Shown piece by piece: positions 3,428 through 30,925 of a stretch of 33,299 nt of DNA; the first letter of the stretch is position 1; every line of letters begins with the position of its first letter. The stretch is from Burkholderiales bacterium (GTDB lineage: Bacteria; Pseudomonadota; Gammaproteobacteria; Burkholderiales; Burkholderiaceae_C): NCBI GenBank assembly GCA_026400155.1, contig JAPLPO010000025.1, positions 1-33,299 of the forward strand. The letters are read 5' to 3'. A program made the translations under genes and the position numbers. Below the pieces are notes generated by a model, which was not told the origin of the DNA, ran no database searches, and worked only from the letters and a program-made list of their open reading frames with translations.

Positions 3428-3523
3428 GGACAAATCTGGGGCAATGGTGTGCAATATTGAGTGAGGGCTGTCGAATTTCAGGCTGTTTGCGAAGCACTCA
3501 AAGGTCTGACGATTGACTGAATT

Positions 3524-10631: not shown

Positions 10632-10645
10632 GCTTGTCTCCGATG

Positions 10646-12283: not shown

Positions 12284-12317
12284 AGTTTCAAAATACAAAT
12301 TAAACAGAGAAAAAAAA

Positions 12318-13154: not shown

Positions 13155-14065
13155 TTGGCATCCTCCGACAATTTGACGCGGGCCAGCTTGATAAAGATGA
13201 TTGCGGTGATCAAGATGATCACGAACAATGAGGTGGACGCTGCAGAGCCATAACCCATGTTGCCGTACTCCACCATTTCACGGCGCACAAAGCCCGACAT
13301 GCTGATGGTGGTACTGCCGTTGGCAGTTAACACATAAATCAAATCAAACACGCGCAGCGAGTCGAGCAAACGGAACACCACAGCCACCAGCAAAGGTTGG
13401 CGAATGAGCGGCAATGTGATTTTCCAAAACACACGCAAGGGATGCACGCCATCCACGCGTGCAGCTTCATAACAATCCTTGGGCACGGTCTGCAGGGCCG
13501 CCAAAATAAGCAAGGCCATGAAGGGGGTGGTTTTCCAAACGTCCACTAACACCACGGTCCAAAGGGCATAGGCAGGCTCAGCTGTCCATGCTATTTTTTG
13601 AGAGATCAAACCCAAGTCCATCAGGTAAGTGTTGATCACACCAAACTGATCGTTCAGCATCCAACCCCACATCTTGGCCGACACAATGGTGGGAATGGCC
13701 CATGGCACCAACACGGCAGTCCGTACAAAAGCACGGCCCTTAAACTCTTGATTCAAAAGCAAGGCTACGCCCAAACCAGTGAGTGTTTCCAAGATGACCG
13801 ACACCACCGCAAAGGTAAAGGTGTTGCGAATGGAGATGCCCCAATCGCCCGCCCAAAAACCACCTTCTTCATTGGGGTTGAAGAACAAGCCGTATTCGCC
13901 AAAGTAGTTTTCCAAGCCTACAAATTTGGCGGCAGAAATATCGTTGATATTCATGTCTGTGAAGCTGAACCAAATGGACCGCGCCAAGGGCCAAACAGCC
14001 ACTACCAACATCAGCAACACCATGGGCGCTAAAAACAACCATGCGGTTTTAACTCTTGAATTCAT
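13151..14065 (-). CDS. malF: Carbohydrate ABC transporter permease, MalF type
   Basis: First membrane subunit of the oligosaccharide importer. The 304-residue protein has an N-terminal helix (about residues 8-28), five further helices, and the ATPase-docking motif EAARVDG (200-206) followed by PLIRQPL. It lacks the large periplasmic loop of Escherichia coli MalF and so looks more like the shorter ThuF/LacF-type permeases. It lies 18 nt downstream of the binding-protein gene and overlaps malG by 4 nt. The arrangement binding protein, permease, permease on one strand supports a single importer. Confidence 0.93.
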   Translation of the reverse strand: MNSRVKTAWLFLAPMVLLMLVVAVWPLARSIWFSFTDMNINDISAAKFVGLENYFGEYGLFFNPNEEGGFWAGDWGISIRNTFTFAVVSVILETLTGLGVALLLNQEFKGRAFVRTAVLVPWAIPTIVSAKMWGWMLNDQFGVINTYLMDLGLISQKIAWTAEPAYALWTVVLVDVWKTTPFMALLILAALQTVPKDCYEAARVDGVHPLRVFWKITLPLIRQPLLVAVVFRLLDSLRVFDLIYVLTANGSTTISMSGFVRREMVEYGNMGYGSAASTSLFVIILITAIIFIKLARVKLSEDAK

Positions 14066-15328: not shown

Positions 15329-18000
15329 TGTTTAGATCCTTTGACCACAAACACCACAGCACTGCGCGCTGGAATGTCAAACGTGCCCGTTGTCTTTTCA
15401 TACTTGGCGCTGTCGCGTGGTCTGGCATCTGCGGCTTGCGCAGACGCTTGAACGGGGTGAAGTTCAAACGCTTTTTGTGCCAGCTTTGGAATGATTAATT
15501 GTTGCGCTTTCTCGGAAGCATTGACGAAGTAAATCAATTCGGCAAAGTCATTCAGGTCGCGGCCTTGCAAATGGCCTGCAATCAAACGCGGGTCGGCTTG
15601 CGAGTCGGTGTTGAAGAAGCTCAGGCGCGCCTGCACATCTTTTTCTGTTTCTAATCTGAACAATTTGGAGCTCTTGCGAATCTTCAGCAAATCCAAATGC
15701 GCATTGCGTGTCCACACAATGTCGCCAGGCGTAGGTTTGAGATTGGTGTCTTTTAGCAATGCGCGGCTGATGGCGTTGGCTTCTGGGCTGTCTTGCAAGT
15801 CAGGCACAGACTCCCCAAAATAGTTGCTCTGGTAAGACCAGTCCAATAGATTGAACAAATCACCCGAGTCGTAGCTGTTGCCGTCCAAAGACTTGGAACG
15901 CAAAATTTCTTGGCCTGCATGGAAGTAGGCCACACCTTGGCTGAAAGCCACCAAGGCGCCCGCCAGCATTTGGACGCGTGCGCGTTCTGCACTTGGAGTT
16001 TCACGCGGCAACTTGTAGACCAAGCTGTCAAACAAGGTGAGGTTGTCGTGGTTCTCTGCATAGTTCACCACCTCGCTGGGTTGGCTCACATAGCCAGTGG
16101 GTTGGTCGCCATAGGGAATGTCTTGTAGCGCTTTGACCGTGCCATCTGCCGTGGCCATGCGGTAGTTTCTAAGAGACCCTGCCAGGCCCGCACGAATTTG
16201 ATCGGACACCCGCGCAGAGCTTTCACGGCCACTCACAAAGCCGGGTACCTTCACTAAGTTTTCAACTGCATCGCCAGCACCACCACCGCGAATGGCATCG
16301 CGCAGCCGGTCGTTGAAGGTGCCAATGCCCGTGCCGTTCAAAGACAGTTGCGAGGCTTGCACAAAGCGCGCGCTATTGGCCACTTCGCCAAAGTTCCAAC
16401 CTTCACCCACAAAATCAATGCGCCTCTTCAGCGTTTTCTGCAAACGGTTTTGCATGTCCAACATCACTTGTTTGGGCTGATGGCCCATCAAGTCAAATCG
16501 AAATGAATCTAACTTGTAGTGTTGGGTCCAAAGCAAGACCGAGTCCGACATCAGTTTGGCCATCATGAGGTTTTCTGTGGCCGTGTTGTCGCAACACGTC
16601 GAGCGCTCAACCTCACCTTTTGCATTCAAGCGTTGATAGTAGCCGGGCACGATGCGATCTAGTACCGATTGCAAATGCTGACCCGATGCCGAGGTGTGGT
16701 TGTAAACCATGTCCATGCCCACGCGCCATCCAGCTTCGTGCAATGATTTCACCATGCGGCGAAACTCCACAATGCGTTTGGCACCGTCATCTGCATCGCT
16801 TGCATAGCTGCCCTCAGGCGCATTGAAATGCAGTGGGTCATAGCCCCAGTTAAAGCAGTCGTTGGCGCGGGTGGTTTTGTCCGAGCGCGCATCGCTTTGG
16901 CAGTTTTTCTCGGGCACAGTGGCCAAGTCAAAAACGGGCAGCAGGTGCAAATCGGTCATGCCCGCATGGGCCAGCGCCTTCAAATGCTTCATGCCTTGCG
17001 AGGCGGTTTGTGTGAAGGCCAAATACTTGCCTCGTTGCTCTGCAGGCACTGTCTCATCGTTGATCGAAAAGTCGCGCACATGCAATTCATAAATGACCAT
17101 GTCGGCCGGATGATTCACGCTGTGGGGTGTGAGATGCGTGTCCCAATTGGCAGGTTTTAAATGGGCGGCATTTAAATCAGCCACATAACTGCGAAGAGAG
17201 TTGGCACTTAAACTCACAGCATAGGGGTCGTTCACAAGGTTGGTCACCATGCCGACGCCGGGTACAAAAACGTCAACGGCATAGCGGTAATAACTGCCTT
17301 GCTTGGCTTGGCGCGATGGGACTCGCCAAACCCCTGTGCTGTTGTCGCGTTTCAATGCGGCATGTGCCAAGGCAGGCGAATTTGCGTCTGCATAAATGCA
17401 AACGCTGACTGCTTGCGCTGTAGGTGCCCACAAGCGAAATTCTGTGACCTGTGTGTTGGCTGATGTCGATAGCCTTGAAAATGTCACGCCCAATAGGCGT
17501 TCATTGGCTGCTTTGCCAAACAAGTCATCCAAAGCCTTGGCCAATTGCACGCGGGTGGCCATGACAACGTGACCATTGGCATTTTCTTGCACCAACACCA
17601 ATTGCGTGGTGTGAAGTTTTCTTAGCGCAGCATCGCTCAAGGCGGGCATGTCTAAGGTCTGAGGGGCGCCGACTCTTAAACCAAATACCTGATCGGCACC
17701 CTTGGCAGCTTGACCCACTTCCACTTTCAACTTGCCAGCTGCAGAACTGAGCAGCCGCCAAACTTGACCAGGCTCCTTGGTTGCACCCGGCATCAAGATC
17801 TGGGAACGGTTTTGCCAAATGGCCAATGCAGGCAATGTCAAACTGTTGGCATGAGTCACCAGTGTGCCCAAGGGTGCGTTGCACAAGCTGTTGCCAACGT
17901 CAGTCAAAAGTGTTTTTCCCGCAGCTGCACCCATGCTCAACATGTTGATGACAAGGCAGGGCAGTGCAGCCCAGCGCGAAATGCGAGAGAGTAGAAGCAT
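15325..18000 (-). CDS. pulA: Exported type I pullulanase (GH13 debranching enzyme)
   Basis: Cleaves alpha-1,6 branches of pullulan or limit dextrins outside the cytoplasm. The precursor of 891 residues starts at the first ATG (18000) with a signal segment (LLLSRISRWAALPCLVINML). An N-terminal region of about 150 residues has no clear family. A CBM48 module follows (about 185-262, containing FRLWAPTAQAV). The catalytic barrel carries the pullulanase signature FNWGYDPLHFNAPEGSY (about 381-398) and YNHTSASG. Its nucleophile is D503 in SFRFDLMGH, its acid/base E533 in VGEGWNFG and its stabiliser D652 in AENHDN. It is first gene of the minus-strand operon and shares a divergent promoter region with the amylases at 18159. 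An in-frame TTG at 18015 is a less likely start. No strong Shine-Dalgarno is visible. Confidence 0.93.
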   Translation of the reverse strand: MLLLSRISRWAALPCLVINMLSMGAAAGKTLLTDVGNSLCNAPLGTLVTHANSLTLPALAIWQNRSQILMPGATKEPGQVWRLLSSAAGKLKVEVGQAAKGADQVFGLRVGAPQTLDMPALSDAALRKLHTTQLVLVQENANGHVVMATRVQLAKALDDLFGKAANERLLGVTFSRLSTSANTQVTEFRLWAPTAQAVSVCIYADANSPALAHAALKRDNSTGVWRVPSRQAKQGSYYRYAVDVFVPGVGMVTNLVNDPYAVSLSANSLRSYVADLNAAHLKPANWDTHLTPHSVNHPADMVIYELHVRDFSINDETVPAEQRGKYLAFTQTASQGMKHLKALAHAGMTDLHLLPVFDLATVPEKNCQSDARSDKTTRANDCFNWGYDPLHFNAPEGSYASDADDGAKRIVEFRRMVKSLHEAGWRVGMDMVYNHTSASGQHLQSVLDRIVPGYYQRLNAKGEVERSTCCDNTATENLMMAKLMSDSVLLWTQHYKLDSFRFDLMGHQPKQVMLDMQNRLQKTLKRRIDFVGEGWNFGEVANSARFVQASQLSLNGTGIGTFNDRLRDAIRGGGAGDAVENLVKVPGFVSGRESSARVSDQIRAGLAGSLRNYRMATADGTVKALQDIPYGDQPTGYVSQPSEVVNYAENHDNLTLFDSLVYKLPRETPSAERARVQMLAGALVAFSQGVAYFHAGQEILRSKSLDGNSYDSGDLFNLLDWSYQSNYFGESVPDLQDSPEANAISRALLKDTNLKPTPGDIVWTRNAHLDLLKIRKSSKLFRLETEKDVQARLSFFNTDSQADPRLIAGHLQGRDLNDFAELIYFVNASEKAQQLIIPKLAQKAFELHPVQASAQAADARPRDSAKYEKTTGTFDIPARSAVVFVVKGSKQ

Positions 18001-18158
18001 CAGAAACTCATGCAATGAATAGAATCAGAATTATCGTAATAAAACTACAAAAAATCATCATGCAATCGATTGAATTAGGGTAAGTACCGAATATTGCAAA
18101 TTTCATTGGCCTCAAAATCTGTAGCTTTTCTACATTTCGGCCTCATTTGGGTGTGCGC
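18001..18158. promoter_or_regulatory. Divergent promoter region with LacI-type operator candidate
   Basis: This A/T-rich gap separates the pullulanase-ABC operon (minus) from the exported GH13 cluster (plus). At 18061-18074, TGCAATCGATTGAA contains a perfect 10-bp palindrome, CAATCGATTG, centred on CG. It matches the LacI/GalR-family pattern TG-AA-CG-TT-CA at all fixed positions but one. On the minus strand TTGCAT (18061-18066) followed 18 bp later by TATTAC could be a promoter, placing the operator at its -35. On the plus strand TTGAAT (18070-18075) with weak -10 candidates lies at the other edge. A second copy of CATGCAAT occurs at 18009-18016. The LacI protein at 29915-30925 is the candidate binder (inference). 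Confidence 0.5.
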
Positions 18159-19838
18159 ATGAGTGATCAAGTTCAGTTGAATATCAAAAAATGCTTTTTT
18201 GGCCTTGCCAAGAACACAAGTGCTCAGGGCTTGAGAGCCCTGCTGCTCTGTGTCAGCGTTTGCCTTGGCGCATGTGGGGGCTCTTCCGTGATCACGCTTG
18301 AAGTGGGTAACGGCAGTGAAACGCAGGTTTTAGATATGGGGTCTGTGCCGCAAGGCGCAACTGCGAGTGCCTTGGCGCCCGATTGGTGGCGAGGCGCCTT
18401 TATGCAAATTTATGTTCGCGCCTATCAAGACAGTGACGGCGATGGCATAGGCGATCTCAAGGGTTTGATTCAACGCTTGGATTATTTACAGGGTCTCGGG
18501 GTTAAAGGATTGTGGCTGTTGCCCATCTCAGAAAGTTCAGACCGTGATCATGGCTACGCGGTCAAAAATTACCGCGCCATCGAAGCCGATTATGGAGCCC
18601 TGGCAGACTTTGATTTGTTGCTGTCTGAAGCGCACAAGCGAGGTATGGGTGTAATTATTGATTTTGTGATCAACCACAGCAGCAACCAGCACCCGCTGTT
18701 TCTAAACTCATCATCTTCTAGCAAGAACACGCAAAGAAATTATTTTGTCTGGCAAAACCCCAAGCCAGTAGGTTGGCAGGTTTATGGGCAAGACCCTTGG
18801 TACGCGAGCAATTGGGCGAACGGGTTTTATTTCGCAGGCTTCTCACCGACCATGCCCGATTTCAACTTGCGTTCAAGTGAGGTTGAAACTTTCCACCACG
18901 ACAATTTGCGATTTTGGCTGAACAAAGGTGTTGACGGTTTCCGCTTTGATGCCGTTGGCAACCTCATTGAAAATGGCCCCAGTGCTTGGGAAGTTCAAGC
19001 AGAAAATCATGTGGTGATGAGCAAGGTTCGCCAAACCATCCAGCAGTACAGCCAACGTTTCATGGTGTGCGAGGCGCCTGCCAATTCAAATGCATTTGCA
19101 CAAGCAGACTCGTGTGGCAGTGCGTTTGCGTTTGACTTGTCTGGCTCGGTGGTCGGGGCGGCCAAGGGCGATGCCGCAGCGATTCAAAAATTGGCCGACT
19201 ATTACAAAACAAGGTCGGCCAATCTGGCCCCCTTTGTCTCTAACCACGACCGTTTTGCGGGCGACCGTTTGTGGAACCAGGTGCAAGGCAATCTGGCGCA
19301 ATACAAGCTGGCTGCAGCCAGCTATTTGTTGCTACCTGGCACGCCCTTTATTTATTACGGCGAAGAAATTGGCATGGCCTCGGCCAGCACCTTGTCTGGC
19401 GATGCCGCCCTTCGAACGCCAATGAGTTGGACCACCGATGCCAAAGGGTTTAGCACCGCAACCCCCTTTAGAAGCTTGTCGGCCAATGTGAGTTTACAGA
19501 ACGTGGCGCAGCAACTGAGCGACAGCAGCTCGCTCTATCAACACTACAAACAACTGTTGGCTTTGAGAAACACACACACAGCGCTGCGAAGCGGTACCTA
19601 TGAAGCCGCATGGGCGCTGCAAAAGACCATGGGTTTTCAGCGCGTGGCCGGTGCCGAAAAAATCATGGTGCTGTTGAACTACGACACGCAGGCCAGCATG
19701 CTCAATGTGAGTAACTTAACGCCTGGTGATGCTTGGGCGCCTTTGATGGGCGCATCGGCTACAGCCACTGTTTCAAGCGCAGGTGTGCTCCAGCTGAGTT
19801 TGCCCGCACAGTCATTGGCTGTTTTTAAGAAAAACTAA
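18159..19838 (+). CDS. Exported GH13 alpha-amylase-family lipoprotein
   Basis: Alpha-glucan hydrolase, predicted lipid-anchored and facing the periplasm or cell surface. The protein of 559 residues has a long N-terminal region, a hydrophobic stretch, and the lipobox LGAC with Cys39 followed by GGSS. The GH13 barrel starts near DWWRGAFMQIYVRAYQDS. It has calcium-type DGDGIGD, region I DFVINHSS, nucleophile D264 in GFRFDAVGN, acid/base E305 in MVCEAPA, and D364 in SNHD. A short C domain ends the protein. The first ATG (18159) is used; a TTG four codons upstream is possible. It lies 21 nt before a paralogous gene, and the three exported GH13 genes form one apparent operon. Specificity (alpha-amylase or alpha-glucosidase) is not decidable from sequence. 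Confidence 0.9.
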   Translation: MSDQVQLNIKKCFFGLAKNTSAQGLRALLLCVSVCLGACGGSSVITLEVGNGSETQVLDMGSVPQGATASALAPDWWRGAFMQIYVRAYQDSDGDGIGDLKGLIQRLDYLQGLGVKGLWLLPISESSDRDHGYAVKNYRAIEADYGALADFDLLLSEAHKRGMGVIIDFVINHSSNQHPLFLNSSSSSKNTQRNYFVWQNPKPVGWQVYGQDPWYASNWANGFYFAGFSPTMPDFNLRSSEVETFHHDNLRFWLNKGVDGFRFDAVGNLIENGPSAWEVQAENHVVMSKVRQTIQQYSQRFMVCEAPANSNAFAQADSCGSAFAFDLSGSVVGAAKGDAAAIQKLADYYKTRSANLAPFVSNHDRFAGDRLWNQVQGNLAQYKLAAASYLLLPGTPFIYYGEEIGMASASTLSGDAALRTPMSWTTDAKGFSTATPFRSLSANVSLQNVAQQLSDSSSLYQHYKQLLALRNTHTALRSGTYEAAWALQKTMGFQRVAGAEKIMVLLNYDTQASMLNVSNLTPGDAWAPLMGASATATVSSAGVLQLSLPAQSLAVFKKN

Positions 19839-19859: not shown

Positions 19860-21434
19860 ATGGCATCTTTCTTCAAACATAGGCGTGCCATGACCTGGCC
19901 TCAAATCACTGGCATCGCCCTGTTGCTGGCAGCGCTCATTGCCAGCACACAGTTGGCACGCAAGCCGCCAAGTTTGCCGGAGGACTGGCACCACGGTGCT
20001 TTCATGGAAATCTTTGTTCGCAGTTACAAAGACAGCAACGGCGATGGCATTGGGGACTTGAAGGGCTTGACGCAGTCGCTCGATCACTTGAAAGACTTGG
20101 GCATCAAAGGCATTTGGCTCATGCCCATAACCACCAGTGCCGACAAGGACCATGGTTACGCCACCACCAACTTTCGCGACATCGACCCAGACTATGGCAA
20201 CTTGGCCGACTTTGATGAACTGATCAAACAGGCCCACGCCAGAGGGATCGGTGTGATCATGGACTATGTTTTGAATCACAGCGCCAAAGAGCACCCCTAC
20301 TTTGAAGACAGTTTGAAAAATCCGCAAAGCCCTTACCGCGCTTGGTTTGAGTGGCGACAAGAGAAACCGCAGGGCTGGGACATCTGGGGCAAAGACCCTT
20401 GGGTGGTCGCCAGCAAGGGCAGTTATCTGGCCACTTTTGGCCCGCACATGCCCGATTTCAACATGCGCAACCCCGATGTGGTGAAGTACCACGAAGAGAG
20501 CTTGAAATTTTGGTTAGACCGCGGCATTGATGGTTTTCGTTTGGACGCAGTGCCGCACCTCATTGAGAACAACGCCAAGGACTGGAACGACCAACCGGAA
20601 AGCCGAAAACTCACGGGCCACTTCACACGCCTGATCAAGTCTTACCCCAATCGCTATGTGGTGTGTGAAGCCACAGCCGAGCCCAAGGTGTATGCACGCG
20701 AAGAGATTTGTGGTGGCGCGTTTGCATTTGGTTTGGAAAATCAAATTGCCAAAGCAGCGCAAGGCGAGACAGAGGCCATTCAAAAAGTTGCGCAGTACTA
20801 CATGCAAGCGCCCCACAGCTTGGCCAGTTTTGCGTCCAACCACGACCAGTTTGCAGGCAAGCGCTTATGGGATCAGGTGAATGGCAACGAGCTGCACTAC
20901 AAATTGGCAGCTGCCACTTACTTGCTGTTGCCGGGTACCCCGTTCATTTATTACGGTGAAGAAATTGGCATGGCGGGCGCCCAAGGTTTAAGCGATGACC
21001 CGTTCATCAGGGGCCCCTACAGCTGGCAAGCCAACGAAGAAACGGCAGGCTTCACCACAGGCAAGCCTTACCGAGCTATTTCGGGCAACAACAGCACCCA
21101 CCATGCGCAAGTGCAAAAGGCAACGCCAAACAGCCTTTGGTCTTTCTACAAAGAGCTGCTGGCCCTGCGCAATTCACGCCAGTCGCTTGCCAAGGGAAGC
21201 TACGAGTTTGCCAAAGCGCAAGGGCAAACTTTGAGTTACCAACGGAAGGCTGGCTCAGAACACAGTGTGGTTGTGATCAATTATGGTTTGCAGCCAATGC
21301 AAATCGAACTTGACGGAATCACAAGCCCATCGAAGTTGAGTGCGGTTTATGCCTCAACGGGTATTGCCAGTCTCAAAGGGAATGCGTTCAATGTTCCTGC
21401 TCAATCCGTCCATGTGTTTGCAGTGAACAAGTGA
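19860..21434 (+). CDS. Membrane-anchored or exported GH13 alpha-amylase-family enzyme (paralogue of the preceding gene)
   Basis: A 524-residue GH13 enzyme clearly related to its upstream neighbour. Both share GAFM-I-VR-Y-DS-GDGIGDLKGL, DHGYA, DPDYG-type spacing and similar catalytic surroundings. The N-terminus (QITGIALLLAALIAS) is a signal anchor or signal peptide without a lipobox, so its location may differ from that of the lipoprotein copy. Catalytic residues are D229 in GFRLDAVPH, E270 in VVCEATAEP and D329 in SNHDQF. An ATG at 19890 (MTWPQ) is an alternative start. The stop overlaps the next gene by one base (TGATG), showing coupling. The tandem pair probably arose by duplication and diverged; the functional difference is unknown. 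Confidence 0.9.
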   Translation: MASFFKHRRAMTWPQITGIALLLAALIASTQLARKPPSLPEDWHHGAFMEIFVRSYKDSNGDGIGDLKGLTQSLDHLKDLGIKGIWLMPITTSADKDHGYATTNFRDIDPDYGNLADFDELIKQAHARGIGVIMDYVLNHSAKEHPYFEDSLKNPQSPYRAWFEWRQEKPQGWDIWGKDPWVVASKGSYLATFGPHMPDFNMRNPDVVKYHEESLKFWLDRGIDGFRLDAVPHLIENNAKDWNDQPESRKLTGHFTRLIKSYPNRYVVCEATAEPKVYAREEICGGAFAFGLENQIAKAAQGETEAIQKVAQYYMQAPHSLASFASNHDQFAGKRLWDQVNGNELHYKLAAATYLLLPGTPFIYYGEEIGMAGAQGLSDDPFIRGPYSWQANEETAGFTTGKPYRAISGNNSTHHAQVQKATPNSLWSFYKELLALRNSRQSLAKGSYEFAKAQGQTLSYQRKAGSEHSVVVINYGLQPMQIELDGITSPSKLSAVYASTGIASLKGNAFNVPAQSVHVFAVNK

Positions 21435-23944
21435 TGAAAAGTTTGAATTTAAAAACATCGGCGGTTGGCGCCTTCTTGGCTTTGTGTGCCTCGGTGTTTG
21501 CACAGAGCTCCACGCAGAGCACCCCCCAAAGCACTCCCCAAAGCACATCCCCCATCAGCAACCTGGCGCAGGGCACCAATGTCACCTGCCAAGCAGCGCC
21601 CTCCCAAGTGCCACCTCTTTTTTTGCGCGGCGGCATGAATGGTTGGACGGCGCAAGATGATTTTGAATTTGTGTGGGATTGCAATGCGTTTTATTTGAAC
21701 GTCAACTTGCAAGGCGAGCATGAATTTAAATTGGCCGATGCCAAATGGCAGGCCGGCAGCAGCTGGGCGATGCCAGATCGGCAATGGCCCAATGCAGCCA
21801 ACACCATGGCACTGCTCCCCGATAAACCGGGCGGGCCTGCTGCAAAACTCACTTTTTCTGGCGCGCACACCTTGCGTCTCAGTCTCAAAGCCAGTCATGC
21901 CCTGCTTGAATTGCTGCCCCAAACCTTTGTAGACCCACGCCAAGTGGCCGTCACAAATCCAATTGCGCAAAGTTTGCATCACGACTCGCGTGATTTACGC
22001 TATCGCAAACCCTTTGGCGCAGTGCCGCAGCATCAAGCCGTGCAATGGTCATTGAAAGCCTTACCCGGTGTTGAGCGTGCCACCTTGGTGCTCGATGTTC
22101 GAAACCTAGAGGGCAATCAAGAAATCTTGACTTACCGCAATCTGAAGCGCATCGACATGCAACGCACTCAGTTGCAAGGCCACGAGCTTTTCAAAGCCAG
22201 CCACCGTTTCAAAGACAAGGCCATTTATGGCTATTGGTTTGAGGTCTTGATCGGTGGTGTGAAATATGTGTACCACAACAACCCTGAGCCTATTTATTGG
22301 ACCCAAGAAAAAGGCAGCGGGGGCGTAGGCCAAGTCAGTGCACCCATGGAACATGAGCGGCGCCTCAGACGCTTTCGAGTGACTGTTTATGACCCTGCAT
22401 TCAAAGTGCCCACTTGGACACAAGATGCGGTGTATTACTTTATTTTTCCAGAGCGCTATCGCAATGGCAATGTGGCCAACGACCCCCAGGTGGGCCAGCG
22501 CAAGTACCAAAGCCACAACATTGAAGTGCATTCGCGTTGGTTAGACAAACCCTACAAACCTGGCACTGGCGATGGCTCGGACGCGCACTACAACAATGAT
22601 TTTTTTGGAGGCGACTTAGAAGGCATCATTCAAAAATTGGATGAGATTCGCGATTTAGGCGCCAATGCCATTTACATGACGCCCGTGTTCAAAGCGGCCA
22701 GCAACCACAAATACGACACCGCTGATTTCCATGAAATAGACCCCGCCTTTGGCAGCAATGCAGACTTCACGCGACTCACCCAAGAGGCTGCCAAGCGAGG
22801 CATCCGAGTCATTCCCGATGCCTCTCTGAACCACGTGGGCGCCGATTCAAGGTACTTCGATCGCTTTGGTAATTTCCAGTTGCAAGACAAAGGTGCTTTC
22901 GCCAACAACCGCATTCAAGCAGATTCACCCTATGCCAGTTGGTTCACATTGGATGCCACGCAAACAGACCCCGACAAGCAATTCAAAGGTTGGGTGGGCG
23001 TGAGTGATTTGCCAGAACTGAATAAAAATTCGCCTGGATGGCGACGCTTTGCATATGGCGACAAAGACTCGGTCACGCGCAAGTGGTTGCAAATGGGAGC
23101 ATCGGGTTGGCGCATGGATGTAGCACCTTGGGTGCCTGATGATTTTTGGCGCGAATAGCGCAAAGCCGTGAAACAAACCCAACCCGATGCCGTGACCATT
23201 GCCGAGACATGGTTTGATGCGTCCAAATACTTTTTAGGTGACACCTTCGACGCTACCATGAACTACGTCATGCGCAATGCCATTTTGGATTTTGCCAATG
23301 GCAGCGACGCCAGAAAACTGATAGCCAACTTAGAGCACCTGCGTGAGGCCTATCCTCCTCAAGCCTTTCATGCACTCATGAACTTGTTGTCAAGCCATGA
23401 TCAAGCCCGCGCTTTGCATGTTTTAGGCGGCCCCCTTGATGCAGCACCCGAGGCCATGCAAAAAGCCAAACAGCGCTTGCTGTTGGCCACACTGGTTCAG
23501 ATGTCCTTGCCGGGTTCGCCCACCATCTACTACGGCGACGAGGTGGGTATGACGGGCGGTGATGACCCCTACAACCGCATGACCTATCCGTGGGCAGATT
23601 TAGGTGGCCAGCCCGATAGGGCTTTGCGAAGTGAATTCAAAGCCTTGCTCCAATTGAGAAAAGACAAGGCGGTCTTACGAAGAGGGGTGCTCAGTGCCCC
23701 CTTGGCCAGCACGCCTAGCAGCGCTGTGCTGGCGCGGCATTGGGGCAAAGACACGGTGCTCATTGCTTTTAACAACAGTGCGCAAACACAAACCTTGACT
23801 TTCAAGATGCCCAGTGCTTTGAAAGGTCAACAAGGCAAGCTGTGGTGGGGCACTGGCGAGGTGCAAACCAGAGGCCAAGAAATGACAGTGAGCATTGAGC
23901 CCTTGAGTGGTTGGATTTGGGGAACAAGTCCTCAAACCAGATAG
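21434..23944 (+). pseudogene. Exported multidomain GH13 neopullulanase/cyclomaltodextrinase-like enzyme interrupted by an in-frame TAG
   Basis: One reading frame of 836 codons, broken only by an amber codon at 23156-23158 (codon 575). A signal peptide (1-23) is followed by four QST(P/S)-type repeats and a small beta-rich module with FLRGGMNGW (about 55-135). A second N-terminal sandwich resembling those of neopullulanase-like enzymes (about 190-300) precedes a GH13 barrel with region I DASLNHVG. Nucleophile D562 (GWRMDVAPW) lies before the stop. Acid/base E591 (IAETWFDASKYF) and D656 (LSSHDQ) lie after it, so the truncated product could not be an active GH13. The text around the stop reads DFWRE-TAG-RKAVK; relatives usually carry an aromatic residue there, so TGG to TAG is a simple explanation. 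The final stop at 23942-23944 is also TAG. It overlaps the upstream GH13 stop by one base. Confidence 0.85.
21503..21550 (+). repeat. 12-bp in-frame tandem repeat in the GH13 N-terminus
   Basis: Four consecutive 12-nt units, consensus CAAAGCACTCCC, start directly after the signal peptide. They encode QSST, QSTP, QSTP and QSTS, a short Ser/Thr/Pro linker. The units differ by a few bases each and could vary in copy number by slippage without shifting the frame. Confidence 0.8.
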
Positions 23945-23971: not shown

Positions 23972-25483
23972 TCACATGGCTTGTGCAGCGCAGTTCTTGG
24001 CAATGTAATCTGCGTGGTCGGGCATGAATTCAACACACTTGGTGATCACGTTTCGCACACTGTCTAAGTACTCTTGAATGCTGCCCTCTTCTTGCAAGTC
24101 GACCAAGGGGTTGTAGCGTGCCGGTTTCAAGTTTTGTCCCTCCATGACTTGCAACCAGCCCACTTGCGAGAACAACTCCTCGTTGAATCTGAAAATGCGT
24201 CCATGCGTTTGATACAAGGCAATTTTTTCTTGCAGTGAATCGGGCACTTTCATGTGGGCACAGGCTTTCCAAAATTCTGAGTCTGTGCGTTGGTTAACGT
24301 GGTAGTGCAAGATGATGAAGTCGCGAATGCGTTCAAATTGAAAGCGGCTTTGTGCGTTGTAAGTGTCAATGTCAAGCTGACTGAAGCCCTGGTCGGGGAA
24401 GAAATCAATCAATTGGGCCACAGCCGATTGGATCAAATGAATGCTGGTGGACTCGAGGGGCTCTAGGAAACCGCTTGAGAGCCCAATGGCAATGACGTTT
24501 TTGTTCCAAGCCTTTTTGCGCATACCCGTATTGAACTTGATCAAACGCGGATCGGCCAAAGGCTTGCCATCTAAGTTGGACAGAAGTGTGTTTGCAGCCT
24601 CATCTTCGCTGATGAATTGGCTGCAAAACACATGGCCGTTGCCAATGCGATGTTGCAAAGGAATGCGCCATTGCCACCCTGCGCGGTGCGCTGTAGATCG
24701 TGTGTACGGCAACAATTGGGGCGCCGATTCGCATGGTACCGCCAATGCACGATCGCAAGGCAACCAGTGCGTCCAGTCTTCATAGCCTGTTTTCAAAGTC
24801 TCTTCAATCAGCAATCCTCTAAAGCCAGAACAGTCGATAAACAGATCACCTTCAACTCGCTCGCCACTTTGCAAAACGACAGCATCCACGTGACCATCGA
24901 TAGGGCGCTGAGACACTTGAACAATCTTGCCTTCTGTTCGGACCACACCGCGCGCCTCACACAGTTTGCGCAAATATTTGGCGTACAAATTGGCATCAAA
25001 GTGATAAGCGTATGTAATTTCGCCCAAGGGCGAGTTGGGTACCGACAAATCGGGCCGCATGAATTTGTTGGCCCGCGCTGCGGCGCGCGTGATGGAGTAG
25101 CTGCCCAAATCTGCAGCTTTGCCAGCAGCGCGCATTTTGTGCCAATACTGCTCGAACGGTACGGTCCACAAGTCTTGACCAATGGTGCCAAAACCATGCA
25201 TGTAGCGGTCACCCACTTGCCCCCAATTGACAAATTCGATGGCCAGTTTGTAAGTGCCATAAGTGGCTTTTAGGAATTCGTTTTCATCGATGCCAGCAAT
25301 TTTGTTAAAGCGCTGAATCATGGGAATGGTGGCCTCGCCCACGCCCACAATGCCAATCTCATCCGACTCCACCAAGCGGATTTTGTACTTGCCGCGCAGC
25401 ACACTGGCCAAAGCGGTGGCTGTCATCCATCCCGACGTACCACCGCCCACAATGACAATGTTTTGAATTAAAGGGTTTTGCAT
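23972..25483 (-). CDS. Flavin-dependent tryptophan halogenase family protein
   Basis: FADH2-dependent enzyme family that makes hypohalous acid from halide and oxygen and uses it to chlorinate or brominate aromatic substrates. The 503-residue protein has FAD-binding GGGTSGWMTA (13-22), GVGEATIP (47-54), the catalytic lysine K79 in GTYKLAIEF, the signature WQWRIP (W270-P275), and LEPLESTS with E344 matching the second catalytic residue. All key residues are present, so it is likely active. The start at 25483 (MQNPLIQNIVIVGGG) is the first ATG; an in-frame TTG lies four codons upstream. It follows a TonB-dependent receptor on the same strand, with a terminator in the 100-nt gap. Family members next to such receptors occur in Xanthomonas and Caulobacterales, and their natural substrate is usually unknown. 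No flavin reductase gene is in the window. Confidence 0.92.
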   Translation of the reverse strand: MQNPLIQNIVIVGGGTSGWMTATALASVLRGKYKIRLVESDEIGIVGVGEATIPMIQRFNKIAGIDENEFLKATYGTYKLAIEFVNWGQVGDRYMHGFGTIGQDLWTVPFEQYWHKMRAAGKAADLGSYSITRAAARANKFMRPDLSVPNSPLGEITYAYHFDANLYAKYLRKLCEARGVVRTEGKIVQVSQRPIDGHVDAVVLQSGERVEGDLFIDCSGFRGLLIEETLKTGYEDWTHWLPCDRALAVPCESAPQLLPYTRSTAHRAGWQWRIPLQHRIGNGHVFCSQFISEDEAANTLLSNLDGKPLADPRLIKFNTGMRKKAWNKNVIAIGLSSGFLEPLESTSIHLIQSAVAQLIDFFPDQGFSQLDIDTYNAQSRFQFERIRDFIILHYHVNQRTDSEFWKACAHMKVPDSLQEKIALYQTHGRIFRFNEELFSQVGWLQVMEGQNLKPARYNPLVDLQEEGSIQEYLDSVRNVITKCVEFMPDHADYIAKNCAAQAM

Positions 25484-25500
25484 CTTCCACACCAAGAATG

Positions 25501-25529
25501 AAAAAAAGGGGAGGACTAGTCCTCCCCTT
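25501..25529 (-). terminator. Rho-independent terminator after the TonB-dependent receptor gene
   Basis: A perfect 24-bp palindrome (25506-25529), with arms AAGGGGAGGACT and AGTCCTCCCCTT, is followed on the minus strand by a run of T (seven A on the plus strand, 25501-25507). The stem is G/C-rich and the T run is directly adjacent, a textbook intrinsic terminator for transcripts leaving the receptor gene toward the halogenase. Confidence 0.88.
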
Positions 25530-25583
25530 AACTTTAACTTCTCAAATCAGGCGACTTGAGGAAGGTTAAATAACAAGTTCAAA

Positions 25584-28346
25584 TTAGAACTTGTAGGTGG
25601 CGCCCATCAAGTAGATCTTGCCATACTTGACTGTTTCTACGATGTTGTCTGGCGTGTTGCTGTAACGCTGGAACTTTGCATTGCTGGCATTGTTCACTTG
25701 GAACAAAATGGACAAGCCTTTGGCTGGACCTTGTTGGAACTCGTAACCCGCTTGCAAGTCAACCACTGTTTCGCCCTTGATAAAGGTCAACTGACGGTTG
25801 TCTTGGAAGTCGCTGATTTCGCCCAAGAAGTCGGAACGCTGACGACCTGCCACGGCCACTTGGAAGCCACTCTTCTCGTAGTACAAGCGCAAGTTGGTTA
25901 CATTTTTAGACAAACCTGGCAATGGAATTTTGTCCTTGCCAATGTCATTCGTGTTGAATGCGCTGGTAGGCAAGCTCACATTGCTAGAAGTGCTAGATAC
26001 GTTGGCCATCACACCGAAGCCATCCAAAGTGGGCGTTAGCATGGAGAATGGCACATTGACAGCCAATTCAACACCGCTGATGTCGCCACCCTGACCATTC
26101 ATCGGACGAGTCAACATGCCCATGGTGGGGTATGTCAAGCCAGCAGGTGTCAAGCCTTTGTAGTCAAACGGTGTAGCTGTTTTCAGGATGTAAGTGTCGA
26201 GGTTTTTGTAGAAACCAGCGATGCTGACATAACCCTTTTTGCCGAAGTATTTTTCGTATGAAACGTCAAATGACTTTGCGCGGAAGGGCTCCAAGCCTGG
26301 GTTGCCGCCGTCACCGGTGTACATACTCTTGCTGGTGTCGTAGCTCATGTTCATGCTAGCCCGCATGTCTGACATATTGGGGCGGGCCAAAACTTTGGCA
26401 ACACCCACACGCAAGACTTGATCATTGCCAGCATCAAAGTTCAGGTTCAAGCTAGGGTTGAAGTCGGTGTAAGACTTACCGTTAGCAATCGTGGCGGTTG
26501 GGCAACTTGCAACAGAATTGCAATTGGGAACGTTGATGTTGAAGCCAGTAGAACTCTGATCGGTGTTCACCAATTGAGCGCCCACATTGCCGCGATAAGG
26601 CATGCCCATGAACTTGCCGTCTAAGTCACCTTTGACATAAGAAGTGGTGACTTTTTCGTTCACAGACCAGTCTTTTTTCAGAATGTCGCTGTTGACTGTT
26701 CTGGCAACGTCATAGATGGTGCCCAAAGAGCCACGGGGGTCCCATGAAACAACTTTAATGCCTGACGTGCCAGCCACATTGATCGCTGTACCAGGTACAT
26801 CTGCCCCTGCAAATGGGTCGGTGCCTTTAAGGAACAGGGTACCTTCAAGCGTCGTACGTACTTTTTTGCGCTCAGAAAAGTTTGCGCCAATTTCAACCGA
26901 AGAAATGGGACCGTAGTCAACACTTCTGCGTCCTGAGAATCTGACGTTATCTACTTGATCGGTCACAGTTGGGATGGCTGTGTAACCAGCTTGCGGGAAG
27001 CTTGGACCACCGCCCCAGCCGTTGACGTCTGTTAACTTCATCAAACTTCTGTCAGCATAGTTCAGACCAGGTGTGAGAACTGTACTGGCCAAGTTGGTGC
27101 CGTTGTAGCCAGTCCATGACAATGTGTCTGTTCTGCCTGTGGTGTTGCCATTGCCAGGCAAGCCAGCAGTGGTCTCATAGCGAGAGCTTTGGCGGAAGAC
27201 TTTTGACTGTGCAACGTCTGCAGCTGCACGCCATTCGCCAAGCTTCATTTTGGTATTCCAACCAAAAGAATCCAGCGAGTCTTCGCCTGCTTCCATATGG
27301 TTGCGAATGACGCCCTTGAACTTATCAATCGTACCGCTGGTTGCAAAGCCGTCTGAGTTGATCACAGCATTTGTCAAAGTGCCAGCGGGGTCATATTTAC
27401 CTTGGTCACCGGTTGCGCCTTCAATACCCGTTTTCTTAAGACCAAACTTTCCCTTGGAGGAGAAGACATCCAAGACTGTTTCAAAGTCTTTGTTGGGTTT
27501 GTACTGAATAACAGCCATCAAACCTTCGCGATCTGATGTGCTTTGTTCAGTGTCTGCGCCAAAGCCGCCAAAAATCTTGACGTTCCTACCTTGGTAAGGA
27601 ACATCGATATTCCATCCACCCCAAGTGTTGAACTTGAGTTGCTCTGCACCCGCATCTTTCAACTTGGTGAAGCCCAAAGCGATACCCAAAGTGCGGTCTG
27701 CAAATTGGTCTACGTAGGAGAATGATTGGCGATCGCCTTTGCCTTCGCCTGCGCCAGAGTCAATGCCTGAACGCTGTGAACGAACGTTGACAGAGAGTGT
27801 GCGCTTGTTAAAGTCCAATGGGCGCACTGTGCGCAGATCTATGGTTGAGGCCAGACCTTGGCCAACCAATGAAGCCTCTGGCGTCTTGTGAATCACGATG
27901 GAGCCGAGCAATTCTGCAGGGAATTGGTCAAACTCAACACCACGGCTATCACCCGTAGAGGCTTGTTCGCGACCGTTGAGCAAAGCGCCGTTGAAGTCTG
28001 GTGACATCCCGCGAACGCTCACAGATTGCGCACGACCTGTAGATTTGTTGCGCTGCGCAGTGACGCCAGGCAAACGTGAAACTGATTCAGCAACGGTAGA
28101 GTCGGGCAACTTGCCAATGTCTTCAGCAGAAAGTGCTTCAACAATGCCATCTGCATTGCGTTTGGTTGCAATGGCGCTTTCAATCGAAGCCCTAATACCG
28201 GTCACGACCACTTCGGTACTGGCTTGCTGAGCATGCGCAGCACCAGCAACGCTGATGAGCAAGACTGCGCAGCCAGCTGCTACGGGGCTCACTGCGAATC
28301 CGCTTTGTCTCTCCACCTTGCGAGATTTTTGGTTTGTTTGTGTCAT
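25584..28346 (-). CDS. TonB-dependent outer-membrane receptor (Xanthomonas/Caulobacter carbohydrate type)
   Basis: Outer-membrane gated channel that imports a large substrate, here probably maltodextrins, using TonB. The precursor of 920 residues starts at the ATG at 28346. It has a signal peptide ending AHA/QQ near residue 39 and a TonB-box-like EVVVTGIRAS just after it. A plug domain carries IGKLPDSTVAESVSRLPGV and VSVRGMSPDFNGALLNGR. The 22-strand-type barrel ends YLMGATYKF, with the terminal Phe needed for outer-membrane assembly. Sequence style matches the TonB-Xanth-Caul family (which includes Caulobacter MalA). A longer GTG-initiated reading from 28415 would precede the signal peptide and is unlikely. 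No SusD-like partner is encoded, as is usual outside Bacteroidetes. The upstream leader holds a 10-bp inverted repeat. Confidence 0.93.
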   Translation of the reverse strand: MTQTNQKSRKVERQSGFAVSPVAAGCAVLLISVAGAAHAQQASTEVVVTGIRASIESAIATKRNADGIVEALSAEDIGKLPDSTVAESVSRLPGVTAQRNKSTGRAQSVSVRGMSPDFNGALLNGREQASTGDSRGVEFDQFPAELLGSIVIHKTPEASLVGQGLASTIDLRTVRPLDFNKRTLSVNVRSQRSGIDSGAGEGKGDRQSFSYVDQFADRTLGIALGFTKLKDAGAEQLKFNTWGGWNIDVPYQGRNVKIFGGFGADTEQSTSDREGLMAVIQYKPNKDFETVLDVFSSKGKFGLKKTGIEGATGDQGKYDPAGTLTNAVINSDGFATSGTIDKFKGVIRNHMEAGEDSLDSFGWNTKMKLGEWRAAADVAQSKVFRQSSRYETTAGLPGNGNTTGRTDTLSWTGYNGTNLASTVLTPGLNYADRSLMKLTDVNGWGGGPSFPQAGYTAIPTVTDQVDNVRFSGRRSVDYGPISSVEIGANFSERKKVRTTLEGTLFLKGTDPFAGADVPGTAINVAGTSGIKVVSWDPRGSLGTIYDVARTVNSDILKKDWSVNEKVTTSYVKGDLDGKFMGMPYRGNVGAQLVNTDQSSTGFNINVPNCNSVASCPTATIANGKSYTDFNPSLNLNFDAGNDQVLRVGVAKVLARPNMSDMRASMNMSYDTSKSMYTGDGGNPGLEPFRAKSFDVSYEKYFGKKGYVSIAGFYKNLDTYILKTATPFDYKGLTPAGLTYPTMGMLTRPMNGQGGDISGVELAVNVPFSMLTPTLDGFGVMANVSSTSSNVSLPTSAFNTNDIGKDKIPLPGLSKNVTNLRLYYEKSGFQVAVAGRQRSDFLGEISDFQDNRQLTFIKGETVVDLQAGYEFQQGPAKGLSILFQVNNASNAKFQRYSNTPDNIVETVKYGKIYLMGATYKF

Positions 28347-28597
28347 TCTTTTGACATTAAATTGAGAAATAACAGAGGTGTGCCACCCTTGGGAATTTAA
28401 TGTAACAGATTGCACGCTCTTATTGTGTTGCAGAAATAAAACCGTTTTAAAATGAATTCTTTAGAGTTAATTTTAAGGAATGCTATTTTTAAATACCATC
28501 AAAATAGACGAAAATTTAGTTTTTTTGTACCAAAATTACAGCGAATCACTTGTTTGGGTTCTTTATAGTTCTCAATCCGCATTATTCAGCTTCAGCC
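28347..28597. promoter_or_regulatory. Divergent intergenic region between receptor and TPR genes
   Basis: An A/T-rich stretch of about 250 bp between divergent genes. Two features stand out. ACATTAAATT (28354-28363) and AATTTAATGT (28394-28403) form a perfect 10-bp inverted repeat with a 30-nt interval, ending 7 nt upstream of the receptor ATG. TAAAAC-C-GTTTTA (28437-28449) is a perfect odd-centred palindrome that could be an operator. No convincing sigma-70 promoter could be fixed in either direction. Confidence 0.45.
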
Positions 28598-29860
28598 ATG
28601 CCCAATCGTTTTTTCATTTTTTCTTCGATGTCTTCCAGCACCAATGCGCCAAGCAAATTGCGTTCAATTTGCATCACTGCCTTGCTGGCTCTTGGGTTTG
28701 TGTTCAGTGCCAGCGCCCAGGTGCTTGTGCGCCCTGAAGTAGCCAAATCATTGCTAGCTGCCCAAGAGGCCATCAAAACGGGGCAGTTTGAAAATGCCAT
28801 AGCCCTCGCACAGCAAGCCTTGGCCTTACCCGGCATCACGCCTGTTGAAAAACCGGTTATTCAAAGAAACCTTGCCGTTGCAGCCATGCAAGGCAAAAAT
28901 TTCCCTTTGGCTGTGAGCACCCTTGAGGCCCTGCTTCAAGAGTTGCCCGAAGGTGCACCTTTGGCCCAAAAGCTGCCCCTCATTGAGACACTGTTAAGTG
29001 CCAGCCAACAAGCGCAAGATTTAGCAAGGGTGGTCAGTTGGGGTCGCACTTATTTAAAGCTAGAAGGCAGCAACCCTTCTGTGCGGCCGGTGGTCATTCA
29101 AACATTGTCGGTCTTGAACAGACATGAAGAAGTCATTCAAGAAGTCAAAGAAAAAATACGTTTGGATGAAGCGGCCAAGGTCAAGACACCAGAAAGTGAC
29201 TACCGCCTGATGGCTTTCAGTCAGCGCCAATTGAAAGACGACGCGGCATACAACAACACGCTCAAAACCTTGCTCCAAAACTATCCAAGCAAGGCCTACT
29301 GGTCAGAAACCATTGCGCGCATCACGAGAAAAGCCAACTTTAATGCGCGCTTCGATTTAGACCTGTACCGCTTGCTTGAAATGACCGGCAACATGGAAGA
29401 CACTGTTGAATATGTCGACATGGCCAACTTGGCACTCAATGCTGGTCTGCCTGCAGAAGCCGCCCGCGTCGTAGAGCTTGCCTATGCAGCTGGCACCATG
29501 GGCAAAGGCAGCGATGCTGCCAATCATCAAAAGTTGCGCCTCCAAGTTCAACAGCGCCTGAACGAAGATGAAAAAGCGTTGCCCGCAATAGAAAAGTCAG
29601 CCAAGGACGCCAACACATTGGCCAGTTTGGCCGATGTTTATGCCTCTAAACAAAAGTGGAATCAATCGAATGACTTCTACAACAAAGCATTGGCCATGGG
29701 CGGCTTAAGGCGTGAGGCAGAAACAAGATTGCACGCGGGTCTCGTGTTGTCCAAAATGGGTCAAAAAGTGGAGGCTGTCAAAATGTGGGACAGTGTTCAA
29801 GGCGATGCAACCGCAGTCGAATTGGCTCAGTTGTGGAAAATTTGGCAGGCGCACAATTGA
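28598..29860 (+). CDS. Exported tetratricopeptide-repeat-like protein of unknown function
   Basis: A 421-residue protein with an N-terminal signal peptide (LRSICITALLALGFVFSASAQ), so probably periplasmic. The rest is almost wholly alpha-helical, with TPR/Sel1-like pairs. Examples are AQEAIKTGQFENAIALAQQAL, NLAVAAMQGKNFPLAVSTLEA, and near the C-terminus LADVYASKQKWNQSNDFYNKAL followed by GLVLSKMGQKVEAVKMWDSV. No catalytic motif is visible. The first ATG is used (28598); an ATG at 28628 gives a shorter, equally plausible signal peptide. It is divergent from the TonB-dependent receptor and 54 nt upstream of the LacI gene. TPR proteins often scaffold protein complexes, and a link to the receptor or TonB is only suggested by position. 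Confidence 0.82.
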   Translation: MPNRFFIFSSMSSSTNAPSKLRSICITALLALGFVFSASAQVLVRPEVAKSLLAAQEAIKTGQFENAIALAQQALALPGITPVEKPVIQRNLAVAAMQGKNFPLAVSTLEALLQELPEGAPLAQKLPLIETLLSASQQAQDLARVVSWGRTYLKLEGSNPSVRPVVIQTLSVLNRHEEVIQEVKEKIRLDEAAKVKTPESDYRLMAFSQRQLKDDAAYNNTLKTLLQNYPSKAYWSETIARITRKANFNARFDLDLYRLLEMTGNMEDTVEYVDMANLALNAGLPAEAARVVELAYAAGTMGKGSDAANHQKLRLQVQQRLNEDEKALPAIEKSAKDANTLASLADVYASKQKWNQSNDFYNKALAMGGLRREAETRLHAGLVLSKMGQKVEAVKMWDSVQGDATAVELAQLWKIWQAHN

Positions 29861-29914: not shown

Positions 29915-30925
29915 ATGCTAGACAAACGCAAAATTCAAATGGCCGACATTGCCAAATTGGCAGGCGTATCAACAGCCACTGTTTCCCGCGCGCTTAACGG
30001 CAGCGAGGCCATACGTCCCGAAACGCGCGAACGCATTCAGGCTTTAGCGCAAGCGCACCAATACACCGTTCATGCTGGCGCCAAAAATTTGCGCAGCGGC
30101 GAAAATCGCACCTTGGGCTTGGTCATTCCCTACCGTGCCCATTTGCCCATGCAACTGACCGATCCCTTCTTTTTGGCCATGATGGGTCAATTGGCCGATG
30201 CCATGACAGCAGCCCAATACGATTTGCTTTTGTCGCGTGTTGATGCCGATCACTTGGATGAATGTGCTGCCCTTTACGACTCTGGCCGTGTAGCGGGCAT
30301 GGTCATGGTGGGTCAGTGGGATCACCATGATCAACTCAATGCCTTGGCAATGCGGCGTGTTCCCTTGGTGGTTTGGGGCGCCATGCTGCCAGATCAGTTG
30401 TACTGCAGTGTTGGCAGCGACAACTTCAGCGGAGGCTTTCAAGCGACTTCCCATTTGATCCACAAAGGCTGTCGTCAAATCGCATTTTTAGGTGACTTTA
30501 AATCTGGTGAAGCCAAGTTTCGCTTTGATGGCTATTGCCAAGCCCTTCAAACAAATTCCTTGGCACTGCGTCAAGAATTGTGCATTCAATCTCCCTATAC
30601 GCCCTTAGAAGCGCAGCAAGCCATGCATGCGTTTTGTGACAAAGGTATTCAGATTGATGGCTTGTTTGCAGCCAGTGATTTGATTGCCATCAATGCCATG
30701 GGCGTGCTCAACGCGCGGGGCTTGAAAGTACCCGACGACATTGCTGTCATTGGTTATGACGACGTCGATGCATCTCGTCACAGCTTTCCACCTCTCAGTA
30801 CAATCCGACAACCACTTGATCTCGCAGCAAGAGCCCTTTTAGAGTCACTTCAAGAAGTGATGCGGGGTGGCCAACCTGCCTCGCGCCAGTTGAGCAGCGA
30901 GTTGGTGGTTCGGACATCAGCTTAG
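29915..30925 (+). CDS. LacI-family transcriptional regulator
   Basis: A 336-residue sugar-responsive DNA-binding protein. The N-terminal LacI HTH (about 8-50) reads MADIAKLAGVSTATVSRALNGS, followed by a hinge helix region. The periplasmic-binding-protein-like effector domain (about 65-330) contains SDNFSGGFQATSHLI, AASDLIAINAMGVLNARGLKVPDD, and AVIGYDDVDASRHSFPPLSTIRQP. The start at 29915 begins directly before the HTH. It ends in TAG, overlapping the convergent rep stop by 4 nt. Its position beside the receptor/TPR genes and the presence of a LacI-type palindrome at 18061 suggest control of the alpha-glucan locus by an imported sugar. The effector cannot be read from sequence. Confidence 0.93.
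   Translation: MLDKRKIQMADIAKLAGVSTATVSRALNGSEAIRPETRERIQALAQAHQYTVHAGAKNLRSGENRTLGLVIPYRAHLPMQLTDPFFLAMMGQLADAMTAAQYDLLLSRVDADHLDECAALYDSGRVAGMVMVGQWDHHDQLNALAMRRVPLVVWGAMLPDQLYCSVGSDNFSGGFQATSHLIHKGCRQIAFLGDFKSGEAKFRFDGYCQALQTNSLALRQELCIQSPYTPLEAQQAMHAFCDKGIQIDGLFAASDLIAINAMGVLNARGLKVPDDIAVIGYDDVDASRHSFPPLSTIRQPLDLAARALLESLQEVMRGGQPASRQLSSELVVRTSA

Follow-up and report, generated by a model that had tools for sequence, protein, structure and literature searches.

A BrvH-like flavin-dependent halogenase encoded directly behind a TonB-dependent receptor in an alpha-glucan locus, with a polypeptide as its possible substrate

What a flavin-dependent halogenase might do in the midst of genes for alpha-glucan use is the question raised by a 33,299-nucleotide stretch of DNA (the window) from a Burkholderiales bacterium (assembly GCA_026400155.1, contig JAPLPO010000025.1). 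The halogenase gene lies directly 3' of a TonB-dependent receptor gene, inside an alpha-glucan locus (Table 1). GH13 and pullulanase-type enzymes, an ABC importer and a regulator were found together, which identifies the locus as one for alpha-glucan, and the sequence-only reading that every neighbor of the halogenase concerns starch held for nearly all genes. The TPR-repeat protein and a Rep-type helicase, which lie together with the LacI-family regulator on the far side of the receptor gene, are not starch genes, and the gene of the MATE-family transporter is 16 kb away from the halogenase gene.

Table 1. Features of the window (positions in nucleotides of the forward strand)
Feature	Position	Strand	Remark
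TonB C-terminal domain protein	719..1393	-	
Glucokinase fused to RpiR-type HTH-SIS regulator	1556..3565	-	
GH13 enzyme with glucodextranase C-terminal module	3660..6386	+	
MATE-family transporter	6383..7777	+	
GH13 enzyme	8245..9483	-	
MalK-like ABC ATPase	9495..10649	-	
GH13 enzyme	10646..12403	-	
Two ABC permeases	12318..14065	-	MalF/MalG-like by context
Extracellular solute-binding protein	14084..15328	-	MalE-like by context
Pullulanase-type alpha-1,6-glucosidase	15325..18015	-	TIGR02103
GH13 enzyme	18147..19838	+	
GH13 enzyme	19860..21434	+	
GH13 protein, N-terminal part	21431..23158	+	ended by in-frame TAG at 23156-23158
GH13 protein, C-terminal part	23168..23944	+	same frame
Flavin-dependent halogenase	23972..25495	-	PF04820; nearest BrvH/Xcc4156; probable ATG start 25483
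Terminator-like hairpin	25506..25529	-	10 pairs, T-rich tail; in the receptor-halogenase gap
TonB-dependent receptor	25584..28415	-	TIGR01782; probable ATG start 28346; 943-aa ORF
Receptor W467 codon	27015-27017	-	943-aa ORF numbering (W444 from ATG); predicted long loop 419-476
Receptor W265 codon	27621-27623	-	943-aa ORF numbering; other conserved Trp
TPR-repeat protein	28550..29860	+	divergent from receptor
LacI-family regulator	29915..30925	+	

Neither a core biosynthetic gene, as a secondary-metabolite cluster would have, nor an aromatic-metabolism gene was found among 20 window proteins scanned, and a PADLOC search gave no match for the halogenase, the TPR protein or the MATE transporter. 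The MATE gene and its neighbor, the GH13 gene with a glucodextranase C-terminal module, recurred together in a halogenase-free alpha-glucan locus (L158, positions 4261-8252), so that the transporter may serve glucan use here as well. Two side observations concern the remaining genes. The homologue in locus L036 of the GH13 protein that is split by a TAG codon in the window is one unbroken ORF of 971 aa, and the in-frame TAG could be either a real pseudogene mutation or an assembly error. A homologue of the TPR protein occupies the same place in a locus of the same genus (L032, positions 14097-15311).

The halogenase ORF comprises 507 aa from a TTG codon or 503 aa from an ATG (codon 5, at 25483), the latter being the likelier start, and matched PF04820 with 649.7 bits (cut-off, 21; E = 3.3e-195) over profile positions 1-456 of 458. 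The GxGxxG motif, the catalytic Lys (K79 from the ATG; K83 in the ORF), the WxWxIP motif (reading WQWRIP) and the catalytic Glu (E344 from the ATG; E348 in the ORF) were all present, in agreement with the sequence-only reading that the catalytic marks of the enzyme are kept. In an alignment of 15 halogenases that included that of the window, the Lys, the Glu and both W residues and the I of WxWxIP were invariant, and the P of this motif varied. Full-length and with its catalytic marks intact, the window halogenase thus looks functional as judged from its sequence. No signal peptide was recognized by eye. In the source genome (2.69 Mb and 81% complete, with the window as contig C159), a single PF04820 gene was found.

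The best matches of the halogenase among PDB sequences were 9luq (a Pseudoalteromonas enzyme, from its title), Xcc4156 (6y1w) and BrvH (6frl), at 502-555 bits and over nearly the full length, and all remaining matches, with LooH and PrnA next in line, scored 311 bits or less. The residue after the EST motif is a Ser (S351), as it is in 129 of 138 catalytically complete relatives, the window enzyme included; replacement of Gly by Ser at this position is described for BrvH and two Xanthomonas enzymes in the available text of PMC7336383. In sequence alignments, which were the sole basis of this comparison, the halogenase could be followed with 6y1w and 6frl through the substrate-loop region, matches to PrnA, RebH, Thal and LooH stopped at residue 429-430 of the halogenase, those to PyrH-type enzymes extended to approximately 498-500 (498 in the case of PyrH [2wet]), and Th-Hal, Tar14 and SttH each matched in two stretches, best from residue 159. 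Since PyrH-type enzymes, too, align to approximately 498-500, the C-terminal alignment alone leaves the subtype unsettled. According to the parts of PMC5945002 and PMC7336383 that were available, enzymes of the BrvH/Xcc4156 type prefer bromination, and no native substrate is known for BrvH or the Xanthomonas enzymes; the latter source adds that the site is open in both BrvH and Xcc4156, that both are active on indoles, inactive on free Trp and might accept peptides, and that Xcc4156 is 26% identical to MibH.

We then assessed how often a halogenase of this kind and a TonB-dependent receptor go together, starting from the halogenase. A match at E ≤ 1e-20 was found in 17 of 300 genomes from the order of the source organism, whose own genome is one of the 17, and all 13 matches with at least 55% identity were directly behind a TIGR01782-like receptor gene; these 13 include the window and one contig-end fragment, and the receptor of L037 is cut by a contig end. 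GH13 genes were nearby in 8 of these 13 close homologues. In a second sample, the best 80 (L052-L131) of at least 587 named loci, ranked by halogenase sequence, the halogenase gene was directly behind a TonB receptor gene in 55 loci (47 with TIGR01782-like and 8 with Oar/OMP_b-brl_4-like receptors). In the other 25 loci, the receptor was on the same strand 0.7-4 kb away (2 loci), divergent (4 loci), elsewhere in the locus (9 loci), not detected (9 loci) or undecidable (1 locus). Receptors in this survey were called with profiles built from relatives of the window receptor, so that not detected means no match to these, L090 was labeled by hand from Pfam, and ORF starts were the longest possible. 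Direct pairing recurred in Burkholderiales and in Xanthomonas, Pseudoxanthomonas, Sphingopyxis, Maricaulis, Henriciella, Gilvimarinus and Glaciecola. The earlier claim that such enzymes recur beside TonB-dependent receptors in other Proteobacteria was thereby borne out, with 55 of the best 80 of at least 587 loci on the halogenase side and, as set out below, 36 of 63 receptors on the receptor side.

Linkage to glucan genes was a different matter. A GH13 gene was present in 28 of the 55 direct pairs from these best 80 of at least 587 loci, and 16 of the first 17 loci (L052-L068) had one. From 47 genes picked behind halogenase genes, 10 were scanned and proved to encode GH2 (L097), PF10091 (L085 and L093), LPMO (L101) and GH13 (L062, L083 and L104) proteins, the others being a DEAD helicase, a molybdopterin oxidoreductase and an alpha/beta hydrolase. 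A sister clade of the receptor (L156-L160, L264, L266, L268 and L285-L287) has GH13 genes alongside and no halogenase gene in the stretch. From these sister alpha-glucan loci without a halogenase and from the pairs next to GH2, PF10091 and LPMO genes it follows that the halogenase goes with the receptor and not with starch, and a glucan-specific role was rejected as a general rule. The survey that the sequence-only reading had proposed, of halogenase with GH13 and TonB receptor genes, therefore gave a divided answer: linkage was conserved for the receptor and only partly so for glucan genes.

Several of these loci had further features of their own. In L101 (positions 2-5775), the receptor-halogenase pair is followed by a gene for a cellulose-type LPMO with CBM2. 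Oar/OMP_b-brl_4-type receptors, which are a different family, precede halogenases of the same subtype in L085, L088, L089, L093, L094, L100, L121 and L128, and the genes next in L085 and L093 are PF10091 "glycoamylase" genes. Genes for SapC (PF07277) and Cupin_8 (PF13621, JmjC-like) proteins lie beside TonB receptors and halogenases in L045 and L048 (by Pfam) and in L066 and L101 (by profile), and beside a receptor with no halogenase seen in the stretch in L174 and L194; they are a second protein pair at these receptors.

The window receptor matched TIGR01782 with 541.5 bits (cut-off, 310), and its plug and barrel were recognized by PF07715 and PF00593; its probable ATG at 28346 coincides with the end coordinate named in the sequence-only reading. 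Its matches to PDB sequences were weak and to BtuB only, and the 50 matches listed in a fold search with its predicted structure were siderophore, heme, transferrin, cobalamin and other TonB receptors of 10-14% identity. When 300 genomes of this order were searched with this receptor, 24 places matched; all 10 with at least 46% identity (window included) were followed by a halogenase gene, and of the other 14, one (40% identity) was linked and 13 were unlinked, three of these near contig ends. A phylum-wide search matched in 46 of 398 genomes and, together with further loci, gave the set in which 36 of 63 receptors were halogenase-linked; these receptor-side searches scored 2-4 receptors per genome, and the two later ones covered 30 loci each. 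Of 29 TIGR01782 receptors taken from 8 genomes as a baseline, 11 were linked and 18 were unlinked. On a FastTree receptor tree, the linked label changed 9 times versus 29.5 times when labels were shuffled. Distances between receptors correlated with distances between halogenases (rho = 0.57 for 90 pairs; top of 999 permutations, 0.20); such co-divergence is expected of any operon pair. The receptor-halogenase pair is therefore widespread and optional, tends to joint inheritance and is no fixed part of alpha-glucan loci.

Between the two genes of the pair, the window has a terminator-like hairpin. Hairpins with a stem of at least 7 and a T-rich tail were present in 42 of 94 receptor-halogenase gaps of relatives (some of them duplicate loci), versus 2.0 from shuffles, which preserved base composition only. 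With a stem of at least 9 and within 160 nt after the stop codon, hairpins were found behind 59 of the 92 linked receptor genes (6.9 on average after shuffling) and behind 32 of the 55 unlinked ones (4.9 after shuffling); behind halogenase genes, stems of at least 9 were found in 5 of 58 stretches, shuffling having covered the two receptor sets. Since hairpins trail unlinked receptor genes as well, the hairpin belongs to the receptor gene, and its position after this gene suggests that the halogenase is probably expressed by read-through, at a level below that of the receptor. A search for CG-centered palindromes revealed no operator site common to the receptor promoter and the others.

With the receptor as a possible substrate in view, linked and unlinked receptors of this kind were compared, and W467 and W265 are the candidate tryptophans that the linked ones share. 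In the predicted structure (mean pLDDT of 83.1, approximately 71 around W467), W467 falls in a long loop (419-476) between barrel strands, which would be on the outer side by loop-length parity. The signal at W467 was strong early and became weaker with more sampling. In a first comparison (45 linked versus 8 unlinked receptors), it was one of 8 columns lost among 153. In a second, with 78 linked and 34 unlinked receptors (9 of the latter set aside as distant), it was one of two relaxed among 73 conserved columns, and W was present in 77 of the 78 linked receptors. In the largest, with 161 distinct receptors and 11 distant rows set aside, W occupied the position in 113 of the 114 linked receptors, that of L039 having Phe, and in 24 of the 36 unlinked ones, and W467 was one of five relaxed columns among 84; the distant rows were chosen by hand, and L279 was kept as near although the receptor tree groups it with the distant rows. 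Other than the Phe of L039, W467 was lost only in unlinked receptors, mostly in one clade of 11; the losses represent very few events. W265 was conserved at 96% and 92% in the comparison of linked and unlinked receptors.

Phylogenetic tests showed no significant association of W467 with the halogenase. Among independent pairs, cis linkage and W went the same way in 1.4 and opposite ways in 1.0 of 8, and presence of any close halogenase in the genome and W went the same way in 2 of 5 and opposite ways in 0, counts that cannot reach significance. In 25 unlinked receptors, W was present in 10 of 11 with and 3 of 14 without a genome halogenase of at least 49% identity (P = 0.001), in 9 of 10 with and 4 of 15 without at a cut of 50% (P = 0.004), and in 10 of 16 with and 3 of 9 without when any halogenase at E ≤ 1e-30 was counted (P = 0.23); the labels were assigned by hand, the identity cut was chosen after the data had been seen, the P values ignore kinship, and 11 later unlinked rows are left out of this comparison. 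Several observations count against the receptor as the substrate: W467 was kept in 24 of the 36 unlinked near receptors, among them those of G923, G994 and G144 (84% complete), where no halogenase was found in the genome; it was not the only relaxed column in the largest set; this column is without Trp in other receptor clades that are linked to a halogenase; and 9 of the best 80 of at least 587 halogenase loci gave no receptor match.

Some relatives carry halogenase genes in arrays, most of them near a TonB receptor gene. In 14 loci with at least three, and up to five, halogenase genes in a row (L076, L092, L096, L098, L106, L107, L108, L111, L112, L113, L115, L122, L123 and L130), 15 copies lack the catalytic Lys, the catalytic Glu or both, and WxWxIP is gone as well in 14 of these. 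The dead copy is second in 12 of the 14 loci and third in L113, a further one is fourth in L123, and L096 is cut by a contig end; L066 has three halogenase genes that are not in a row, none of them dead. Examination of 155 family members flagged, beyond these 15, only two contig-end fragments. All 10 dead copies scanned matched PF04820 (that of L106 only in part), all 15 were on one side of one branch in a FastTree tree, at which long branches meet, and the model of the dead L107 copy (mean pLDDT of 87.6) had BrvH as its best fold match. Together, these sequences and this model suggest that a non-catalytic subunit role is open to family members at receptors.

We propose, with a probability of roughly 0.35, that the substrate of the halogenase is a polypeptide tryptophan, the polypeptide most likely being the receptor prior to its export. 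The enzyme would be made as a lower-level read-through product behind an abundant receptor and, having no signal peptide by eye, would be a cytoplasmic enzyme that draws its reduced flavin from a general reductase. The open substrate site of the enzyme would bring HOX to a tryptophan of the bound polypeptide, which would most likely be the receptor, before or during export, and the halogenated aromatic residue in an outer loop may then tune ligand binding, stability or phage recognition. Halogenation of an aromatic residue of the receptor, one of the options of the sequence-only reading, stays open, with two candidate tryptophans to which it can now be tied. The most specific form of the proposal, in which the halogenase posttranslationally halogenates, and probably brominates, W467 (or W265) in an outer loop of the receptor before export and dead paralogues are complexed with it in multicopy relatives, is unlikely as a whole.

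Halogenation of a small molecule is about equally likely. An indole, a phenol or an aromatic glycoside that enters with, or is freed from, the imported glycan, or an intracellular indole, could be the substrate, and the product could be a signal or be detoxified or degraded; this possible role fits the bromination of free indoles by tested family members (PMC5945002 and PMC7336383, in the text available), the apparently cytosolic location of the enzyme, the several kinds of glycan genes that the pairs adjoin and the arrays of 3-5 halogenases near one receptor, which would suit stepwise tailoring. However, alpha-glucan is not aromatic, the 20 window proteins scanned include no aromatic-metabolism gene, and the tight coupling to the receptor gene would go unexplained. 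Because the relatives have an open site and the gene is paired with that of a receptor, we lean slightly toward halogenation of a polypeptide. The 15 dead paralogues in 14 arrays, with their recurrent second place (12 of 14), their position on one side of a branch and the retained fold of the one that was modeled, would also agree with family members, or the window halogenase itself, being flavin- or receptor-binding subunits in assembly, redox or regulation, with halogenation secondary. We consider this improbable for the window enzyme, which retains its catalytic residues, and dead copies are few (15 and two contig-end fragments flagged among 155 members).

A metabolite-producing or defense arm of the glucan locus that exports through the MATE transporter had been put forward in the sequence-only reading and appears very improbable. 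Although MATE and halogenase genes do share one locus here, they are 16 kb apart and the former recurs with its adjacent GH13 gene in the halogenase-free L158, which leaves the metabolite arm unsupported; pairs next to GH2, PF10091 and LPMO genes, glucan loci without a halogenase, the lack of biosynthetic core genes among the proteins scanned and the lack of PADLOC matches for the halogenase, TPR and MATE proteins likewise speak against it. Least credible of all is that the halogenase is a chance or hitchhiking neighbor with no functional tie to the receptor: its occurrence is patchy (17 of 300 genomes of the order, the window's own included) and 18 of the 29 baseline receptors from 8 genomes were unlinked (11 linked), but direct pairing recurs in Burkholderiales and seven named genera, and the linked label changes far less often on the receptor tree than when shuffled (9 versus 29.5).

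No report of a halogenase-receptor pairing was found in the open-licence literature, among the matches listed; the available parts of PMC11337851, PMC8269204 and PMC2996990 do not report it, and that of PMC11340318 describes one insertion in a tryptophan halogenase gene among colony-morphology mutants. The question of the native substrate can now be put to a direct test, given a defined partner gene, sister loci that have or lack the enzyme, and two candidate residues in the receptor. Should the receptor prove to be the substrate, a surface transporter would carry a protein modification of an unusual kind, enzymes for brominating Trp in proteins could be drawn from this source, and halogenation of a receptor by a dedicated enzyme would also provide the native substrate of BrvH/Xcc4156-type enzymes.

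Compared with known systems, the window enzyme is closest to BrvH and Xcc4156, together with the Pseudoalteromonas enzyme 9luq, and shares the Ser after EST with BrvH; Xcc4156 itself has Asn there. The native substrates of BrvH and Xcc4156 are stated to be unknown in the print available, while the window enzyme has a defined receptor partner and an alpha-glucan locus around it. Free-tryptophan halogenases (PrnA, RebH and Thal; PyrH, Th-Hal and SttH) have PF04820 in common with it, and its catalytic Lys and Glu and its WxWxIP motif align with their counterparts in PrnA, but their scores are far lower (at most 311 bits) and the window gene has no biosynthetic genes alongside among the 20 window proteins scanned. 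The peptide halogenases MibH, SrpI and ChlH are also flavin dependent and act on peptide Trp (PMC12615548, available in part), a likeness in described activity. Carbohydrate utilization (CUT) loci with TonB receptors, as presented in the available text of PMC1790865, share with the window locus a TonB receptor, glycoside hydrolases, an inner-membrane transporter and a LacI regulator; that main text, as far as available, is without halogenases, whereas the window locus has one behind its receptor, and its sister receptor clade is again without it.
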